Shown here one piece after another: positions 11,804 through 40,130 of a DNA stretch of 61,947 bases. The stretch covers positions 1-61,947 of the forward strand of contig CALMBW010000011.1 of NCBI GenBank assembly GCA_937863385.1, read 5' to 3'. The notes beneath the pieces are model-generated. The model worked only from the letters and a program-made list of their open reading frames with translations, had not been told where the DNA came from and did not search any database. The number at the start of each line of letters is the position of its first letter. Position 1 is the first letter of the stretch. Origin of the DNA: an uncultured Actinomycetes bacterium (lineage in GTDB: Bacteria; Actinomycetota; CADDZG01; WHSQ01). Both the position numbers and the translations under genes were made by a program.

Positions 11804-13006
11804 ATGGCAAGCCTCAAAGTTGGCGTGATCTTCGGCGGTCGCTCGGTCGAGCACGACGTTTCGGTCGTGACCGCCCATCAAGCGATGGCCGCTCTGGCGC
11901 CCGATCACGAGGTGATCCCGGTTTACGTCACGCGTGAGGGCAAGTGGCTCACCGGCCCGGGCCTCAACGATCTGGCCGTCTATCGCGATAAGCGCTGGGG
12001 CAGCGCGGGAACTCCTTGCTTCATCTCGCCCGAGACCGGCACCGGGGGTCTGACCGTAGAGCCGGCCGCGCAAGGTGGACTGCTCAAACGAACCAGGGAC
12101 GTCCGGTACCTGCCACTCGACGTTGTCATCCCCGCCATCCATGGGACCTTCGGCGAGGACGGGACGTTGCAAGGCTTGTTAGAGCTCGCGGATATCCCGT
12201 ACGCCGGTTGCAATTCTCTAGCTTCGGCGGTGGGGATGGACAAGCCTGCGATGAAAGCGTGCTTCAGAGATGCCGGGATAGCAGTGTTAGACCACATCGT
12301 CTTGCACAGAGACGAGATCTTGAGCGACCTCGGTTCAACGGTAGAGAAGGTTGAAGATGCGATCGGTTACCCAGCGTTCGCCAAACCGTCCCGGCTCGGT
12401 TCCAGCGTGGGCATCGGGAAAGCCAAGGACCGGGCCACGCTGCAAGAGGTGCTGCAAGTGGCGGCTACCTACGACCGGCGCATCCTGGTCGAACCGTCGG
12501 CCGAGGGCTGCATCGAGATCAATTGCTCGGTCTTAGGTGGTTATGGGTTCCAGGCGCGAGCATCGGTGTGCGAGCAACCCGTTGCTTGGGAGGAGTTCCT
12601 TTCCTTCGAGGACAAGTACATGCGCGGTGGAAAGGACGGCGGGACCAAAGACGCGCAGGGCATGGAGGCGCTCGACCGGCGCATCCCGGCCCCCATCTCG
12701 GACGAGCTCACGACCAAGGTTCAAGAGCTGGCGGTCCGGGCGTTCGAGAGCATCGATGGTGCCGGAGTGGCGCGGGTCGATTGTTTCGTGAAGCAGGAAT
12801 CGGGCGAGGTCTGGGTCAACGAGATCAACACGGTGCCCGGCTCGTTCGCCTTCTACCTGTGGGAACACTCGGGTATCGACTTCGGCGGCCTCATGCAGTC
12901 CTTGATTGACATAGCCTTGGCCGGACATCGTCAGAAGCAAGACCTGATGTTCACTTACGAGTCTGGGATGTTGGACAAGGACCGAGGGGGATCCAAGCGT
13001 GGCTGA
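11804..13006 (+). CDS. ddl: D-alanine--D-alanine ligase
   Basis: An ATP-grasp enzyme that joins two D-alanines for the peptidoglycan stem peptide (400 residues). Visible features are [15 protein letters not shown] at the N-terminus, [15 protein letters not shown] near 107, [27 protein letters not shown] in the ATP-binding domain, and the metal-ligand segment [10 protein letters not shown] near the end. It is slightly longer than the usual 310-370 residues because of an insert around residues 60-90. A start-proximal -10 box suggests its own leaderless promoter. Its 3' end overlaps the start of the SigR-like gene by eight bases. Confidence 0.95.
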
Positions 13007-13619
13007 TGCCGCGAAGGCAGATCTGACGCAGGAAGAGAAAGAGCGATTCCAGACAGACGCGTTGCCGCTTCTGGACTCGCTCTATTCGGGTGCCCTGCGG
13101 ATGACCCGTAACCCTTCCGACGCCGAGGATCTCGTTCAGGAGACGATGTTGCGCGCCTACCGTGCCTTCGATCGCTTCGAGGCAGGAACCAACCTGAAGG
13201 CATGGCTGTTCCGCATCCTGACGAACGCCTACATCAATACCTACCGCAAGAAGCAGCGCGAGCCTCTGAAGGTCTCCCAGGATGAGGTCGAGGACTTCGA
13301 CCTCTATCGCGAGCTCAAGAATCACGACCCAGAGATGAGCGTCACGCCCGAGACGATCGTGCTGGACAATCTCGTCGATTCCGACATCATCGAAGCGATC
13401 GATGACCTGCCCGAGCAGTTCCGTCTTGCGGTCGTCCTTAGCGACGTGGAAGGCTTCTCGTACGCCGAGATGGCCGAGATCATGGACGTCCCGATGGGGA
13501 CGGTCATGTCCCGATTGCATCGGGGAAGAAAAGCGCTCCAGAAGAGGTTGTGGGAGGTAGCGCGAGACAGGGGGATCGTCAAGGGTCCTCATCCAGACCA
13601 AGCAGACGCAAAGAGCTAG
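12999..13619 (+). CDS. sigR: SigR/SigH-like ECF RNA polymerase sigma factor
   Basis: A 206-residue ECF sigma factor with region 2 ([20 protein letters not shown]...[12 protein letters not shown]) and region 4 ([42 protein letters not shown]). It matches the actinobacterial SigR/SigH group, which directs the thiol-oxidative stress response. The next gene encodes the matching zinc anti-sigma factor. It starts at GTG 12999 behind GGGGGA, inside the last codons of ddl. The coupling to cell-wall genes is unusual. Target promoters would be GGAAT-N18-GTT by family knowledge. Confidence 0.93.
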
Positions 13620-31302: not shown

Positions 31303-31686
31303 CTAGGCCAGAAAGACGCTCGCAGCTATCACGACGAGACTGGCCCAATAGCTGCAGATGAACACGTAGTCGACCGCGCCCGGCCGCGAGGGGATGAACA
31401 CCCCTAACGTCCAGATCGGCATGGCGATCAGTCCGAATAGCAGTGCATAGATCAGAGCGGGCCAACGTGCCCACTCGGCCCCCGAAGCCCAAAGGGCACC
31501 GATCGCGATGAGTACCACCGCCAGCACGGCGCCTCCGATGGCGTCGGGCAGAGGCCCACCCTTACTGAGGCGGTAGACGCGGTAGCCGAACGCCAGGGCC
31601 GCGCTGCATGCCAGAGCGATCGTAAGGACTTGTCCCCAGGCCGAGCTGTTCGCAGGGGACGCGAGTACCAATGTGGTCAGGTTCAT
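31303..31686 (-). CDS. Hypothetical four-helix membrane protein
   Basis: A 127-residue hydrophobic protein with four predicted helices at about 18-38, 48-67, 74-95 and 105-126. Loops are short and no motif is recognised. Its stop lies 11 bases from the convergent bldD stop, and its start is close to the divergent DUF3105 gene. I can assign no function. Confidence 0.7.
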   Translation of the reverse strand: MNLTTLVLASPANSSAWGQVLTIALACSAALAFGYRVYRLSKGGPLPDAIGGAVLAVVLIAIGALWASGAEWARWPALIYALLFGLIAMPIWTLGVFIPSRPGAVDYVFICSYWASLVVIAASVFLA

Positions 31687-31713
31687 CGAGCGTTCACGAT
31701 AGCCTCACCAGAC

Positions 31714-32478
31714 ATGGGCAAGGGATCCAGACGAAAAGACAATCTGACTGGCGCTCAGAAGCAGGAGATGCGCGCGAAGCGTCTCGAGGCGCGCCGGGCA
31801 GCCAAGGCCGAAGCGGAAGCTCGGCGGCGCAAGCAGGAGCGACGCGAGCGCTTCGTCCGCTTGGTCATCATGGGCTTCGTCGTCGTCTCCCTGGTGTGGT
31901 TCATCTTCTTGCGCAATCAACAGCCCACAGAGTTCGATGGCAATCCCATCACTCAGTTCTCGACCGCTGGCGTGAATAACCACACCGGCGGTACGGTCAA
32001 TTACGAGACCTTGCCGCCGGTTTCGGGCGAGCATGCTCCGGGTGCTGCACCGTGCGGCGTGTACAACCAGCAGATCCCCGATGAGACCCAGGTGCACATG
32101 CTCGAGCATGGTGCTGTCGGCATCCAGTACCTGCCCACGCTGCCCGTCGAGCAGATCAAAGAGATCGAGGCGATCGTCGAAGACTCCGAACGCAACGTCT
32201 ACTCGGCCCCCTATCCCGGCATGGAATCTCAAGTGGCGGTGACGTCGTGGAGTCGCAAGATGGAACTCGAAGAGATCGACGCGCCGGCCGTCCAGAAGTA
32301 CGTGGATGCCTTCGCGGGTAAGGGACCTGAGCCGGGCCAGGAGTGTCCGAAGGAGGTCGATTCACCCTTCGAGCCCCAAGCCTCTCCGAGCCCTGCTCCA
32401 GTCGCGACGATCAGTCCGGAACCCGAAGATGGTGCCGGCTCTGGTGGAGGCAAGAAGGGCAAAAGCAACGACGGCTAG
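31714..32478 (+). CDS. DUF3105 membrane-anchored protein
   Basis: A 254-residue protein. A very basic cytoplasmic N-terminus (KGSRRKDN...RRAAKAEAEARRRKQERRERF) precedes one membrane helix at about 54-71. The extracellular DUF3105 domain (HTGGTVNYETLPPVSGEHAP, CGVYNQQIPDETQVHMLEHGAV) is followed by a Pro/Ser-rich tail. ATG 31714 is preferred to 31630 because TAGCCT (31700-31705) lies eight bases upstream and the longer version is not membrane-protein-like. The histidines in GEHAP and MLEHGAV are conserved in the family and could bind metal. The function is unknown. The dehydrogenase gene follows eight bases later. Confidence 0.85.
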   Translation: MGKGSRRKDNLTGAQKQEMRAKRLEARRAAKAEAEARRRKQERRERFVRLVIMGFVVVSLVWFIFLRNQQPTEFDGNPITQFSTAGVNNHTGGTVNYETLPPVSGEHAPGAAPCGVYNQQIPDETQVHMLEHGAVGIQYLPTLPVEQIKEIEAIVEDSERNVYSAPYPGMESQVAVTSWSRKMELEEIDAPAVQKYVDAFAGKGPEPGQECPKEVDSPFEPQASPSPAPVATISPEPEDGAGSGGGKKGKSNDG

Positions 32479-33742: not shown

Positions 33743-35578
33743 ATGGAACCGATAGCGAGCGTCATCCTGATCTCGCTGGTCGTGTCGGGGGTGATGGTTT
33801 CCATCGCCTACCGGATAGCCAAACGAAGGGCGCAGCGGCAGGTCACCGGAACCCTCCGGGCGGCCTCTGCGGTCGTGGCATCGGCAGTAGCGGCCGCCGA
33901 CTCCGTTGATGCCCTGAAGGAACTCGCTCAAGATCTTGCCTCGCTCTTCGAGGCGGACGCATGCGCGGTCGTCCTTCCCGATGGTTCGGGGACCCTTAGA
34001 GCCGATCCGGTGTTCGGCTTCCCGGACGAGATGGGACGCACGATCCGTACCGATGAAGGACTGGTGGGGGCCTGCTTCACGACGGGCCAGCCGCAGGTGG
34101 TTCCCGACGTGGACAAGGACCCCCGCTACGTTCGCTGGCTTGCCGATGTCCGGTCTTTGATAGCCGTCCCACTTCGCTACAAGGAGCGGATCTTAGGGGT
34201 GTTGAATCTCGAATCGAGCAAGCGACGATACGCGGAGGATGACCTTGCCATCCTCGTTCCCTTGGCAGACCAGGTCGCGGCTGCTCTCGAGAACCTCGAA
34301 CTTCGGGTCGCGGCCGAGGAGCGCGCCGCTGAAGAGAGAGCCCTAAGGAACGACCTACAAGCGATCTCGGCGGTCGTTCTTGCCGGTGTGGCTTCTGCTA
34401 GCGATCTTGATGCCGCCCTTCACTCCATGATCAAAGAGATCAGCGCGCGACTGGGTTGGGAGTCGTTGGCCGTCGTGCTTTATGGCGAGGACGGATTGTT
34501 GTACACGAGGGCCTACTTCGGATATCCGGTGCACTCCACGGTCATCGCTTTCACCCCAGGTGTCGGCATCATCGGAAGCGTTGCGGTAACGGGCGAGGGT
34601 CGCCTGATCGCGGATGTGGCCGAGGATCCCGATTATCTGGACATCGTTGCGAACACGCGGGCGGAGATGTGTGTACCTCTCTTTTCGGGAACGAAGGTCA
34701 TCGGGGTCCTGAACGCCGAAAGTCCGCGTCCGAACGCGTTCGACGAGGGCGATTTCAAGATGCTCAATACCTTAGGCAGACAGATGGCTGTGGTGATCGA
34801 GCGAGCACGCCTCGCCGATATCGAGAAAGAGGCGCTTCGTCTGCTCAAGGAAGCGGATCAGCTCAAGGATGATTTCATCGCGACCGTCTCGCATGAGCTC
34901 CGTACGCCGCTGACCTCGATCAAGGGTTATGCGCAGACCCTATTGGCCCGTGAGGACCAACTGGGTTCGCAGGATCGGTCGGACTTTCTCAAGATCATGG
35001 TTCGGCATTGTGACCGGCTGGCAAGGATCGTGGACACCCTCTTGCTGGTCTCGAGGATGGAAGCAGGAGAAGTGGGGAGCAAGCCGACCTACTCGAGCGT
35101 TGCGGATCTGGTCCAAGAAGCCATCGAGGCGGCGGGCGGAGACGACAGGATTCAGACGGAGATCCATCCCCGTCTGGGTCTGATCACCGACCAGTTCAAG
35201 GTCCACCACATCCTCCGGAACCTTATCGAGAATGCCTGCAAGTACTCGCCGTCATCGGTGCCCGTCTCGGTGCAAGCGGTCCAGGACGAGGATGTGGTTC
35301 TGATCGAGGTGCTAGACGGCGGAGAAGGGATCCCGGAAGGCTACGAAGACCGCGTCTTCCAGCGTTTCTACCGGCTTTCGGAACCCGGTCAAGCATCCAC
35401 ACCCGGAACCGGTCTCGGCCTGTATATAGCGAAGCGATTCGCGATCGACCTGGGAGGGGATCTGTGGGTGGGGCAACCGAGGCAAGGTCACTCCGGTGCG
35501 CGCTTCGTGTTGCGTTTGCCTGCTCTGCCTGCCGAATTCGCACCCAGCACCGTGCGCATAGCGGGATCAGAGCAGTAG
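33743..35578 (+). CDS. Sensor histidine kinase with two GAF domains
   Basis: A 611-residue kinase. There is one N-terminal membrane helix (about 5-25) with almost nothing outside. Two GAF domains follow (about 55-195 and 215-375; VRSLIAVPLRYKERILGVLNLES and AEMCVPLFSGTKVIGVLNAES). The HisKA domain has phospho-acceptor His384 in SHELRTPLTSIKGYA, and the ATPase domain shows NLIENACKYSP, DGGEGIP and GTGLGLYIAK. The GAF ligands are unknown. No response regulator is adjacent, so it is an orphan in this window. Confidence 0.93.
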   Translation: MEPIASVILISLVVSGVMVSIAYRIAKRRAQRQVTGTLRAASAVVASAVAAADSVDALKELAQDLASLFEADACAVVLPDGSGTLRADPVFGFPDEMGRTIRTDEGLVGACFTTGQPQVVPDVDKDPRYVRWLADVRSLIAVPLRYKERILGVLNLESSKRRYAEDDLAILVPLADQVAAALENLELRVAAEERAAEERALRNDLQAISAVVLAGVASASDLDAALHSMIKEISARLGWESLAVVLYGEDGLLYTRAYFGYPVHSTVIAFTPGVGIIGSVAVTGEGRLIADVAEDPDYLDIVANTRAEMCVPLFSGTKVIGVLNAESPRPNAFDEGDFKMLNTLGRQMAVVIERARLADIEKEALRLLKEADQLKDDFIATVSHELRTPLTSIKGYAQTLLAREDQLGSQDRSDFLKIMVRHCDRLARIVDTLLLVSRMEAGEVGSKPTYSSVADLVQEAIEAAGGDDRIQTEIHPRLGLITDQFKVHHILRNLIENACKYSPSSVPVSVQAVQDEDVVLIEVLDGGEGIPEGYEDRVFQRFYRLSEPGQASTPGTGLGLYIAKRFAIDLGGDLWVGQPRQGHSGARFVLRLPALPAEFAPSTVRIAGSEQ

Positions 35579-35600: not shown

Positions 35601-36884
35601 ATGAGACGGACGCTCGCAAACCTTGTCGCATCGGCAGTTCTGGCAGGTTCCCTTGCATCCATGGTCCCGGCGGCTTCAGCGGCCTCCTTGCCGCCCAGCG
35701 AATGGGTGATCGGACCGCGGGCTCGGGTCGTGATGCTCACCTTCGATGGGCAGATGCGTGCGAAGCACTTGAACGACATCCTTGCGGTGCTCGAACAGAA
35801 ATCAGTGAAAGCAACGTTCTTCATGTCGGGTCGATGGATCCGCTACCACCGGGATAAGGCACGTGCGATAGTCGAGGCCGGACACGTTCTGGGTAACCGT
35901 GGCTACGGCACCGAGTCGTTCACATCTCTTAGCGAGACCGAATTGCGTGCCTCTATCGCCCGGGCCCAGGAGATCATCGCATCGGTGGGTGGGTCTCCGG
36001 CCCCCTACCTGCGGGCTCCGAAGGGTGCTCGCTCACTCGATGTTCTGCGGACCGCAGGTTCGATGGGGTATCGCTCGGTGCGCTGGACCTATCGACCGGG
36101 CGGCGGGGCCGCTTCAGCGGTTCGAGACAAGCTCTTGCGTCACGCTCAGGCGGGTGCGATCTACTCGTTGGAACCGTGGCGGTCGAGCCACCGAGCTGCG
36201 CTCGCTAAGACGATCAAGGGTTTTCGAGAGAGAGGGTTCGGGTTCCGCACGGTTGAAGCGCTGCAGAACGCGCACCCCGTGCGCTGGGATGTCACCTTGA
36301 AGCCGGGTTCGACCGGTTCGGAAGTGAAGTATCTCCAACGCAAGCTGAACGCGATCAGCTACCCGGCGGGCAAGCAAAACGGCGAGTTCGGTTACGCGAC
36401 CCAACAAGCTGTCTACGCGTTCGAGAAATACAACGGACTGGCACGTGACAGTGTGGTGACGGTTGCGCAGATGCTCGATATCGCAAAGGCCCAGCGGCCA
36501 GTGGCCCCTAAGGTGGGGAGGCGCAACTTCGTCTACGTGGATATTTCCAAGCAGATCTTGCTCGAGGTCCGTAAGTCGAAAGTGGCCCACACACTGCCGG
36601 TCTCAAGCGGGAACGAGGAGTACTACGAGATGGATGGGCAGCGCTACAAGGCACACACCCCGCGTGGGAACTTCAAAGTTGAACGCAAGATCTATGGCAA
36701 GCGGGTGTCGCGGCTCGGTACCTTGTATGACCCGGTCTATTTCATCGGTGGGTATGCGGTACACGGAAGTCCGTCGGTTCCGACCTATCCGGCCAGTCAC
36801 GGTTGTGTTCGCATCCCGATGTATCTGTCCAGGAAGTTCTATAACCGGACACCGATCGGCATGCCCTTCTTCGTTGTTGACTGA
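35601..36884 (+). CDS. Fusion: degenerate NodB deacetylase, peptidoglycan-binding domain, L,D-transpeptidase
   Basis: A secreted 427-residue cell-wall protein with a signal peptide (1-28). Residues 40-225 have the polysaccharide-deacetylase fold, but its zinc site is missing: TFDDG is TFDGQ (47-51), and the HxxxH pair is Arg100/Thr104. The RxP segment (138-140) remains. Residues 232-290 form a peptidoglycan-binding repeat (LKPGSTGSEVKYLQRKLN...QQAVYAFEKYNGL). The C-terminal YkuD domain is intact, with His400 and Cys402 in SHGCVR. The active part should form 3-3 crosslinks or attach proteins to peptidoglycan, while the first domain probably only binds glycan. Confidence 0.9.
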   Translation: MRRTLANLVASAVLAGSLASMVPAASAASLPPSEWVIGPRARVVMLTFDGQMRAKHLNDILAVLEQKSVKATFFMSGRWIRYHRDKARAIVEAGHVLGNRGYGTESFTSLSETELRASIARAQEIIASVGGSPAPYLRAPKGARSLDVLRTAGSMGYRSVRWTYRPGGGAASAVRDKLLRHAQAGAIYSLEPWRSSHRAALAKTIKGFRERGFGFRTVEALQNAHPVRWDVTLKPGSTGSEVKYLQRKLNAISYPAGKQNGEFGYATQQAVYAFEKYNGLARDSVVTVAQMLDIAKAQRPVAPKVGRRNFVYVDISKQILLEVRKSKVAHTLPVSSGNEEYYEMDGQRYKAHTPRGNFKVERKIYGKRVSRLGTLYDPVYFIGGYAVHGSPSVPTYPASHGCVRIPMYLSRKFYNRTPIGMPFFVVD

Positions 36885-37042: not shown

Positions 37043-37145
37043 CTATGGGCAAACCTCAGAGTTACTAGGAGAAGGAATCACTCGATACATCGAGAAACGG
37101 ACACCAAAGGTGCCCGCCAGAAGTCTTAGCCCCGAAAGGAAGAGG

Positions 37146-38588
37146 ATGTCGAGAACCTTGAAGGTGCTGACGGCGGTTGCGTTGGTGGGCGCGGCCCTGC
37201 CTCTTGCGGGAACGGCTAGGTCACAGGGAGTCAGGTGTCCCGATCCCACTCCCAAGCCTTTGAGTTTCTCCAAGCCTTCGTTCATCGACAAGCGCCGCGC
37301 TGGTGGCGAGCCGGTCAGCGTCGTGGCTCAAGATGGCTCGATCGTCGTATCTGCTCACGCAGGTACCACTCACCTTTACAAAGACCCCCAAGCACTGCCC
37401 GGCTCAGGCGATTTCCTCACGGGTTACTCCAACCAAACCCTTAACTGGCGCAGCGCCGACGGGGGAAAGACCTGGCGCTATGTGGGAACCGCAGGGCTAG
37501 AAGAAGGACCCCACTCTCCGACATCTTCGGGCTTCTCGGATCCGGATCTCACCATCGACAGGGCCGGCAACATCTACAACATCGAGATCAACCTCGCCAA
37601 TGTGTCGGTCTTCAAGAGTCCCGACGATGGTCAGTCATGGCCTCAAGCCAACCCCGTAGCGGCTTCGGGCGACCGGCCTTGGGTGACGGGTCAGCTCGAG
37701 AATGAGGTCTTTCTCTACGTGAACCTTCCCAAACAGCTGTGGCGCTCGACCGATGGTGGGCTTACCTACTCGCTCGTGAGCACCAACTTCCCGGCCGACG
37801 GCAAGCTCGTGTCCGATCCTTCGAACCCCGAGAGCGGTCTACTGGGCCCGATGGATGAAGGCGGTGTCGCCATCAGCAAGGACGACGGCGAGACGTGGGA
37901 GGCGTATCCCGCGGCCCTGGGACCTTCTTCTCAGTTCTTCGGAGCCATCGCAGCAGATCGCTCCGGGTGGATATATGCAGCCAACGCAGGTGGGTACAAC
38001 GGCGACGACGACACGACGCCGGACGGCTCGGTCACGTTCAACTACTTCAACCGCAAGACCAAACAGTGGCGAGCTACACCGATCGAGGTTCCGATCGTGC
38101 CTGGTGACGCCATGTGGCCGTGGATCGTCGCCGGTGATGATGGCCGTGCCGCTATCACCTGGTACCAGAACACGCCCCAGAACCCGGATCGTTTCTACAT
38201 CTACGTTGCGTACACGATGAACGCACACGGAACGGAGGTGCGCTGCTCCGACGGGTCGCGGCGATTCATCGAGCCCAGGTTCGAAGTGGTCAACGCGTCG
38301 GGTCGCCCGATCCACGAGGGCAAGATCTGCCTGAATGGGACCGCGTGCAATGCATCCACGAACTTCGAGGGCGGGGACCGGCGTCTCGGCGACTTCTTCA
38401 CCATCAACTTCGACCACAAGGGAAACATTTTCGTGGTTTCCGGTGACACGACTTTGCCGAACCCCTTGGGGGGACCGAACCCCGTTGGACATCCGATCTT
38501 CATCAAGCAGACATCGGGCGACAAGATGCTCAAGCACCCGGACCAGATCCGTGAGAGCCGTTGCCTCTACCCGCTGCCTAGCTGCTAG
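37146..38588 (+). CDS. Secreted BNR-repeat (sialidase-like) protein
   Basis: An exported 480-residue propeller protein. ATG 37146 follows AAAGGAAGAGG and starts a signal peptide (MSRTLKVLTAVALVGAALPLAG). Asp-box/BNR-type motifs recur (SADGGKTWRYVG, SPDDGQSWPQ, STDGGLTYSLV, SKDDGETWEAY), as in sialidases and related exo-glycosidases. I do not see the complete sialidase active-site set (arginine triad), so substrate binding or another hydrolase activity is equally possible. C-terminal cysteines (CSDGSRR, CLNGTAC) suggest disulfides. Confidence 0.8.
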   Translation: MSRTLKVLTAVALVGAALPLAGTARSQGVRCPDPTPKPLSFSKPSFIDKRRAGGEPVSVVAQDGSIVVSAHAGTTHLYKDPQALPGSGDFLTGYSNQTLNWRSADGGKTWRYVGTAGLEEGPHSPTSSGFSDPDLTIDRAGNIYNIEINLANVSVFKSPDDGQSWPQANPVAASGDRPWVTGQLENEVFLYVNLPKQLWRSTDGGLTYSLVSTNFPADGKLVSDPSNPESGLLGPMDEGGVAISKDDGETWEAYPAALGPSSQFFGAIAADRSGWIYAANAGGYNGDDDTTPDGSVTFNYFNRKTKQWRATPIEVPIVPGDAMWPWIVAGDDGRAAITWYQNTPQNPDRFYIYVAYTMNAHGTEVRCSDGSRRFIEPRFEVVNASGRPIHEGKICLNGTACNASTNFEGGDRRLGDFFTINFDHKGNIFVVSGDTTLPNPLGGPNPVGHPIFIKQTSGDKMLKHPDQIRESRCLYPLPSC

Positions 38589-38679: not shown

Positions 38680-39081
38680 GTGTTCAAGGAGTTCCGCACC
38701 TTCGTGTTGAGGGGCAATGTCGTCGATCTCGCCGTCGGGTTGGTGGTCGGAGCTGCTTTCGGGGCGGTGGTGACGTCGCTGGTGGCAGATGTGATCACCC
38801 CCATCATCACGATCCCGGGAGACATCCCGAACTTCGAGAAGCTGACATGGACCATCTCCGGGTCTGTGATCAGGTACGGCAGCTTCCTGAACACGGTCAT
38901 CGCCTTGCTGACGATAGCGGCGGCGGTCTTCTTCTTCGTTGTCAAGCCCGTCAACGCCATGATGGAGCGCTTCAAGACCGAGCCCGAGGTGCAGCAGCCC
39001 ACCAAACAGTGCCCGGAGTGTCTGAGCAACATCCCTGAGGGGGCCAAACGTTGCGCGTTCTGCACCTCGTCTCAGGTCTAG
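38680..39081 (+). CDS. mscL: Large-conductance mechanosensitive channel
   Basis: A pentameric osmotic release valve of 133 residues. The first helix carries the family signature (FRTFVLRGNVVDLAVGLVVGAAFGAVV), followed by a short periplasmic loop and the second helix (FLNTVIALLTIAAAVFFFVVKP). The C-terminal 25 residues form a zinc-ribbon-like CPEC...CAFC element, absent from E. coli MscL but found in several actinobacterial versions. GTG 38680 follows AAAGGAGAAG. Confidence 0.95.
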   Translation: MFKEFRTFVLRGNVVDLAVGLVVGAAFGAVVTSLVADVITPIITIPGDIPNFEKLTWTISGSVIRYGSFLNTVIALLTIAAAVFFFVVKPVNAMMERFKTEPEVQQPTKQCPECLSNIPEGAKRCAFCTSSQV

Positions 39082-39088
39082 CTCCGGG

Positions 39089-39139
39089 TAACCTCCATCT
39101 ATGACCGCCCGCCGACGAACCGGAGACAACCATGCCTGA
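39089..39139 (+). promoter_or_regulatory. glpX promoter and possible 12-codon leader peptide
   Basis: TAACCT (39089-39094) lies exactly six bases before an ATG at 39101, the leaderless layout seen across this window. That ATG opens a 12-codon frame ([12 protein letters not shown]) that stops at 39137-39139, overlapping the glpX ATG at 39132, which has its own GGAG site (39122-39125). Leader translation could thus feed ribosomes to glpX or regulate it. Confidence 0.4.
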
Positions 39140-40130
39140 GGCCGTGAAGATGAGGGACCCAGATCGCAACCTCGCTCTCGATCTCGTTCGAGTCACCGAG
39201 GCCGCGGCTCTTGCGGCAGCCAAGTGGATGGGCAGGGGCGACAAGATGGCCGCCGACGGAGCAGCCGTCGACGCCATGCGCCTGTTGATGAACACCCTGA
39301 CGATGGACGGGGTCGTTGTCATCGGTGAAGGTGAGAAGGACAACGCTCCCATGCTCTACAACGGGGAAGAGATCGGTACCGGTGATCCACCGCGTGTCGA
39401 TATCGCGGTAGATCCCATCGATGGGACGACCTTGACGAGTAAGGGGATGAACGGAGCACTTGCCGTTATCGCGCTCGCCGAGCGCGGCACGATGTTCGAC
39501 CCAGGTCCCTGTGTCTATATGGAGAAGATCGCGACCAGTGCCGAAGGTAAGGATGTCATCGACATCGACGCGGGCGTGACCGAGAACCTCAAGCGCCTGG
39601 CAAAAGCCAGAGGGGACCGGGTTGAGGATCTAACCGTGACGATCCTGGAGCGCGAGCGTCACGAATCGATCGTGAAAGAGATCCGCGAGGCCGGCGCTCG
39701 GATCAGGTTCATCACCGATGGAGACGTGGCTGGTGCCATCGCCGCTGCCCGTGAATCGAGCTCGGTGGACATGCTGATCGGTATCGGCGGGACCCCCGAG
39801 GGCGTGATCGCCGCTTGCGCGATCAAGTGCATGGGCGGGGTCCTCCAGGGCAAGCTGTGGCCTCGCAACGACGAAGAGACCGCCGCCGCTCGCGAAGCGG
39901 GGTACGACCTGGGCAAGGTCCTCACCGTCGACGATCTCGTTTCGGGTGAAGACGTCTTCTTCGCGGCGACCGGCATCACCGACGGAGACCTGATCCATGG
40001 GGTCCGTTATCGCGGCGAGAGCGCCATCACCCAAAGCATCGTCATGCGTTCTCGCTCGGGCACGGTCCGAGTCATCGACGCCTGGCATCACCGCGACAAG
40101 CTGGCAAGCCTCTCCGACATCGACTACTAG
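39132..40130 (+). CDS. glpX: Fructose-1,6-bisphosphatase, class II
   Basis: The enzyme removes the 1-phosphate of fructose-1,6-bisphosphate in gluconeogenesis. The 332-residue sequence has the GlpX hallmarks [36 protein letters not shown], the metal-binding DPIDGTT (near residue 97), [21 protein letters not shown] and [13 protein letters not shown]. Actinobacteria normally use this class as their main FBPase. It is convergent with the ATP-grasp operon, 12 bases away. Confidence 0.96.

Follow-up and report, generated by a model that had tools for sequence, protein, structure and literature searches.

A CE4 pseudoenzyme domain fused to an L,D-transpeptidase in one actinobacterial family: a putative wall-binding module

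Introduction

L,D-transpeptidases of the YkuD family form 3-3 crosslinks through a cysteine, and to our knowledge the way in which they choose their crosslinking sites is poorly understood. The N-terminal domains of LdtMt2 from Mycobacterium tuberculosis are Ig-like, and we know of neither a NodB domain nor a PG_binding_1 repeat in this enzyme. Like the protein described here, LdtMt2 carries non-catalytic domains before YkuD, and one of them forms a sugar-binding pocket together with YkuD; passages of the same paper (PMC9094749) thus already document L,D-transpeptidases with accessory domains that bind sugar. The L,D-transpeptidase 4LPQ of Xylanimonas cellulosilytica has the same two C-terminal domains, PG_binding_1 and YkuD, but its solved part (residues 123-326) is without a NodB domain, unlike the protein described here.

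BA0150 (PDB 4M1B) and BA3943 (PDB 7BKF, 6HPA and 6HM9) of Bacillus anthracis likewise have a CE4 barrel with eroded metal and catalytic motifs, and we know of no transpeptidase fused to either. CE4 pseudoenzymes are already described in passages of PMC10967932 and PMC6115787, the former calling 4M1B a pseudoenzyme. The lipoproteins BA0330 and BA0331 are CE4-fold wall proteins that stabilise the wall and in which no deacetylase activity was detected (passages of PMC4505593). They differ from the protein described here in that the zinc triad is still present, along with an Fn3-like domain (passages of PMC4505593 and PMC6115787).

Here, we analysed a stretch of 61,947 nucleotides (contig CALMBW010000011.1; hereafter the window) from an uncultured Actinomycetes bacterium whose genome is 99.78% complete. 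In this window, one gene joins a NodB domain that has lost its CE4 active site to a PG_binding_1 repeat and a YkuD domain.

Results

Domain organization of the fusion protein

The fusion gene occupies 35601..36884 on the forward strand (ORF reading and Pfam), exactly as a preliminary description of this DNA had placed it, and encodes 427 amino acids; all other features given below lie on the same strand. A signal peptide-like N-terminus, recognized by eye from the sequences (residues 1-29; 35601..35687), is followed by a strap, PPSEWxxGP (residues 31-39; 35691..35717), in which six of the nine positions are invariant in the alignment of all eight fusion proteins. The pseudo-NodB barrel of the CE4 fold then spans residues 40-225 (35718..36275), as judged from Pfam, the predicted structure and structural matches, with a Polysacc_deac_1 match at residues 40-159 (E 4.4e-26). 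Next comes the PG_binding_1 repeat at residues 238-287 (36312..36461), detected by Pfam with E 1.1e-9 and 38.8 bits against a cut-off of 23. The YkuD domain extends over residues 306-427 (36516..36881; Pfam and structural matches), its Pfam match lying at residues 309-424 (E 1.9e-13). All three matches were over the curated cut-offs and bear out the domain order NodB, PG_binding_1 and YkuD that had been proposed.

The anchor differs between branches. Judged by eye, the signal peptide is replaced in the two fusion proteins of the g8 group (L008 and L009) by the sequence LLGASC, which resembles a lipobox, and a linker rich in Pro and Thr.

Full-length fusions found in one actinobacterial family

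In one actinobacterial family, 7 of 16 genomes, from five genera, carry full-length colinear homologs, at eight loci including the window; the most distant are 39-40% identical. Polysacc_deac_1 and YkuD matched all eight proteins, and PG_binding_1 matched six of them at E<=0.001. Because the arrangement and the active-site losses are common to eight colinear homologs, the arrangement is not due to chance. A frameshift, a sequencing error or a single-genome oddity was also rejected, as eight open homologs exist across the five genera.

No full-length fusion was found when the search was extended to 380 genomes of the phylum outside this family (E<=1e-40, at most four candidates scored per genome), to 394 genomes belonging to the class of genome G044 (E<=1e-62, four candidates scored in the genomes listed; a search run without a positive control, so that its empty outcome carries no weight by itself) or to three further genomes. 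None of the 249 matching plasmid records and none of the 20 matching phage records covered at least 80% of the fusion protein. The search of genome contigs gave three weak matches, one of which, L033, contains two simple YkuD genes. A widespread architecture was rejected within the searched phylum, class, plasmid and phage sets.

In five of the seven fusion-bearing genomes, Polysacc_deac_1 matched nothing but the fusion genes at E<=0.001. The window's genome also has an Agd3-like deacetylase with scarcely any Polysacc_deac_1 match: a 782-residue frame at L048 (G000:C7, around 87693-87932) matched the Agd3 deacetylase (E 1.7e-37) together with CBM87, and it reads HTWTH where zinc histidines are expected. 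The genome with fusion locus L004 holds a second, divergent copy, L036 (G013:C101), with the motif P-D-S-H-G-C-I-R instead of P-A-S-H-G-C-V-R.

The CE4 active site is lost in all fusion proteins

We aligned the eight fusion proteins with 15 stand-alone NodB proteins of the same phylum, taking the roles of the CE4 motifs from passages of PMC4505593. In eroded motif 1 (T47-F-D-G50; 35739..35750), the window protein reads T-F-D-G-Q, and an invariant Gly50 occupies the place of the second, metal-binding Asp of TFDDG. In eroded motif 2 (35898..35912), Arg100 and Thr104 align with both zinc histidines of active CE4 domains. These are the three residues whose loss the preliminary description had reported, and the alignment confirmed each of them. 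The extent of the loss had been understated, as Glu191 aligns with the catalytic His of motif 5 and the Asp/Trp loop of motif 4 is shortened.

The Asp-His-His zinc triad is lost in 8/8 fusion proteins, the L007 row keeping one His. In the same eight, the motif-5 His is replaced by Glu, Asp or Gln and the motif-4 loop is shortened. Among the stand-alone proteins, both zinc histidines are present in 14 of 15, and so is the motif-5 His. The sole exception to both counts is L080 (G021:C25), which belongs to the same class; its second zinc His is displaced, and its motif 5 has Glu. It groups with L087 in the tree and is apparently a separate decay of a CE4 protein. Another stand-alone protein, L091, has lost the motif-1 Asp and kept both histidines.

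The old ligand positions vary freely across the eight fusion proteins: position 49 reads D,D,N,E,N,E,T,T, position 100 reads R,R,R,R,H,R,S,A and position 104 reads T,S,D,R,R,T,G,G, while the adjoining Gly50, Gly98, Asn99 and Gly101 are invariant. The retained aspartate of TFDDG, Asp49, is thus not conserved among the relatives. Motif 3, RAPKG (residues 138-142; 36012..36026), is present in the window protein with the R138-x-P140 segment that had been described as retained. The Pro is kept in all eight; retention of the Arg does not hold across the family, where it is found in six and replaced by Phe in two. The NodB domain of the g8 pair, L008 and L009, is the most diverged and has lost the motif-3 Arg too.

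We then looked among the Asp, Glu, His and Cys positions of residues 30-225 for a conserved trio that could replace the metal ligands, and found none in the eight fusion proteins. The sole invariant ones are Glu34 and His95, and 9 of the 15 stand-alone proteins likewise have His at position 95. Another complete metal site, the case named beforehand as speaking against a dead enzyme, was rejected, since no invariant set of such residues surrounds the groove in the alignment. Judged by its motifs, the pseudo-NodB domain no longer works as a CE4 enzyme. The proposal of a dead deacetylase thus stands at the level of motifs, as an inherited state across eight homologs and not a quirk of a single sequence.

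The predicted NodB barrel resembles CE4 pseudoenzymes

An AlphaFold model of the NodB domain alone was confident (pLDDT 89.6, pTM 0.88). Its best VIA-align match was BA0150 (4m1b; Z 27.9, 1.5 A over 193 residues), followed by Bc1960 (4l1g; Z 26.9, 1.9 A over 195 residues), and many CE4 structures matched with Z 20-28. The top Foldseek matches were entries of the pseudoenzyme BA3943. The model and its comparison with solved structures agree with the earlier claim of a kept NodB fold, and the CE4 barrel is predicted to be intact despite the lost site; likeness of fold alone is no proof of like function.

As in CE4 pseudoenzymes of the BA0150/BA3943 kind, the fold is kept and the residue loss is common to homologs. 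Identity to these two proteins lies at 25-27%, with differences in the detail of what was lost. In the model of the full protein (pTM 0.57), the domains are placed relative to each other with low confidence.

The YkuD domain keeps its catalytic motif

The catalytic motif of the YkuD domain is S399-H-G-C402-V-R404 (36795..36812), and the HGC reported earlier lies at residues 400-402. Ser399, His400, Gly401, Cys402 and Arg404, together with His388, are invariant in 8/8 fusion proteins, so that both the S-H-G-C-x-R motif and His388 are complete throughout. The closest solved L,D-transpeptidase is 4lpq (Z 27.4, 1.8 A over 196 residues, 43% identity). On its motif, we accept this domain as a probable working L,D-transpeptidase.

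A 44-aa frame elsewhere in the genome (L003 1477-1608; G000:C14, about 12924-13055) has only the C-terminal SHGC part of YkuD. It is closest to the family's other PG_binding_1-YkuD proteins (72% over 36 aa to L037) and looks like a remnant of a lost paralog.

Shared descent and unequal constraint

Maximum-likelihood trees were built separately for the NodB part and for the PG_binding_1-YkuD part. The eight fusion proteins fell on one side of a branch in both (support 100/99 for NodB and 100/100 for YkuD), and both trees recovered the sister pairs L004+L005, L006+L007 and L008+L009. Most simply read, these sequences go back to a single fusion in an ancestor of one branch of the family, from which all eight descend. 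Among the eight loci found, no fusion member has an intact metal site.

In the two closest pairs, dN/dS values (NG86; dS near saturation) were 0.34/1.01 and 0.31/1.41 for NodB and 0.06/0.75 and 0.11/0.62 for YkuD, NodB dN being 2.8 to 5.7 times YkuD dN. Mean pairwise identity among the eight proteins is 42.6% for NodB vs 61.8% for YkuD. These comparisons indicate that the NodB domain is under purifying selection and is constrained less than YkuD.

Conserved arginines, groove loops and charge

In eroded motif 5 (36171..36194), the replaced His (Glu191) is followed by Arg194 and Arg198, invariant in 8/8, and by His197, present in 7/8. At the junction of the NodB and PG-binding domains, R228-x-D230 is invariant in the fusion family. 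Conservation of the motif loops was 0.52 vs 0.40 for the rest of the domain, a difference in which the loops were chosen by us and the conservation is largely that of structural Gly and Pro; 1.1% of 10,000 random draws were as high. Stand-alone NodB proteins show the same tilt (0.44 in the motif loops vs 0.30 in the rest).

The net charge of the NodB domain in the eight fusion proteins is +16 (window), +22, +25, +38, +37, +8, +1 and +6, compared with -12 to +11 for the 15 stand-alone proteins. The whole fusion ORF carries +7.7 per 100 residues vs a median of -2.4 for 49 mechanically picked ORFs of the window. Such a charge fits attachment to the wall or to an anionic polymer without proving it. 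The basic charge may be usual for wall proteins in this lineage, because the g8 pair is nearly neutral (+1 and +6) and the family's other YkuD proteins are also basic (+12 to +21). The latter weakens basic charge as proof of wall binding.

Gene neighbourhood

A DUF3105 gene (31630..32478; Pfam) lies upstream of the fusion gene, as it also does in G008, G010 and G013. In G008, its frame ends about 9 bp before the fusion start; in the window the two are separated by a GSDH-like gene and by a GAF histidine kinase. No paper mentioning the domain name DUF3105 was found in the open-access literature searched. The kinase, of the GAF-GAF type (33743..35578; Pfam), ends 22 bp before the fusion gene. 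As a dedicated regulator it was rejected, not being found beside the homologs in a comparison of seven loci, several of them short; L077 gave one weak kinase match (29%), far from the fusion gene. Downstream are a BNR-repeat protein (37110..38588; Pfam), found there also in G006 and G013, and glpX fructose-bisphosphatase (39132..40130; Pfam), found there also in G006, G010 and G013. Most loci other than those named here are too short to judge. The window also holds a gene that is MscL-like by eye (38680-39081), with two CxxC pairs in its C-terminal tail. WhiB genes occur at four places in this genome; among 14 control genomes this family gave a signal in Corynebacterium only, which makes an actinobacterial origin most likely.

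Discussion

We think it somewhat probable that the pseudo-NodB domain is a putative non-catalytic module that binds the wall or positions an exported L,D-transpeptidase on it, and we regard this as the best explanation. By the sequences, an ordinary PG_binding_1-YkuD enzyme gained a CE4 deacetylase domain at its N-terminal end, most simply once. With the metal site and the catalytic His gone and the barrel kept, the pseudo-NodB would no longer deacetylate. After export, the basic barrel and the PG_binding_1 repeat may hold the protein on the wall, where the target would be glycan strands or an anionic wall polymer, reached possibly via a remodelled groove edged by Arg194 and Arg198. Cys402 of YkuD would then accept a donor tetrapeptide stem and link it to an adjacent stem, giving a 3-3 crosslink.

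Selection, groove-loop conservation, charge and the arginines fit such putative binding and also fit a spacer or a docking surface. Against a wall-binding module, NodB changes faster than YkuD, as a mere spacer would, the predicted packing of the domains is unsettled, and loop conservation and basic charge carry the reservations given above.

A spacer or stalk is the next reading, possible though rather less probable. The barrel would bind nothing in particular and would only keep YkuD at a fixed distance from membrane or wall, the role that Ig-like domains or low-complexity linkers have in other L,D-transpeptidases. The faster evolution of NodB favours it, and so does a comparison by eye with 24 other L,D-transpeptidases of the phylum: none shows NodB in the compared stretch before PG_binding_1-YkuD, and these stretches resemble transmembrane or low-complexity linkers, beta-rich domains or another PG-binding repeat. 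However, a spacer would need neither the two arginines invariant in 8/8 nor motif loops more conserved than the remaining domain.

The same arginines, together with the invariant R228-x-D230 at the NodB/PG-binding junction, could instead belong to a regulatory clamp or substrate sensor, in which the pseudo-NodB packs on YkuD and, upon glycan binding, opens or completes the substrate site. We modelled this idea on LdtMt2, where a disaccharide pocket with Arg209 at the IgD2-YkuD interface is reported to modulate the catalytic site (passages of PMC9094749). We consider a clamp unlikely: the PG_binding_1 repeat intervenes between NodB and YkuD, and the relative placement of the domains is predicted without confidence. 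A reader of the glycan state seems equally doubtful to us; the remodelled groove would recognize the state of the sugars (e.g. acetylated) and license 3-3 crosslinking only there.

A changed enzyme, in which the barrel catalyses another reaction without the CE4 metal, is very improbable even though metal-free NodB-fold enzymes exist (3CL6, named Puue allantoinase in the structural match listing, is described as non-metal-dependent in a passage of PMC10967932) and Glu/Asp/Gln191 and His197 sit at the old motif 5, since around the old groove none of the acidic, His or Cys positions stays the same in 8/8, position 191 being Gln in one row and position 197 Asn in another.

The preliminary description knew of no account of this three-part arrangement, and our search agrees: we found no description of a fusion of a CE4 pseudoenzyme and an L,D-transpeptidase in the open-access literature searched. 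The passages of PMC6767563 and PMC4766238 at hand mention both kinds of protein and no fusion, and among the matches listed there was no paper on BA3943. What seems new, within that literature, is a CE4 pseudoenzyme serving as a module of an L,D-transpeptidase, both parts being known separately.

The putative wall-binding module would be a ready-made peptidoglycan-binding fold that was fused to a crosslinking enzyme and lost its chemistry. If the glycan-state reading were true, a wall-modifying enzyme would have been turned into the specificity module of a crosslinking enzyme. The eight natural variants offer a direct test of a dead carbohydrate esterase as a wall-targeting module, and the fusion family suggests a testable function for CE4 pseudoenzymes of unknown role.
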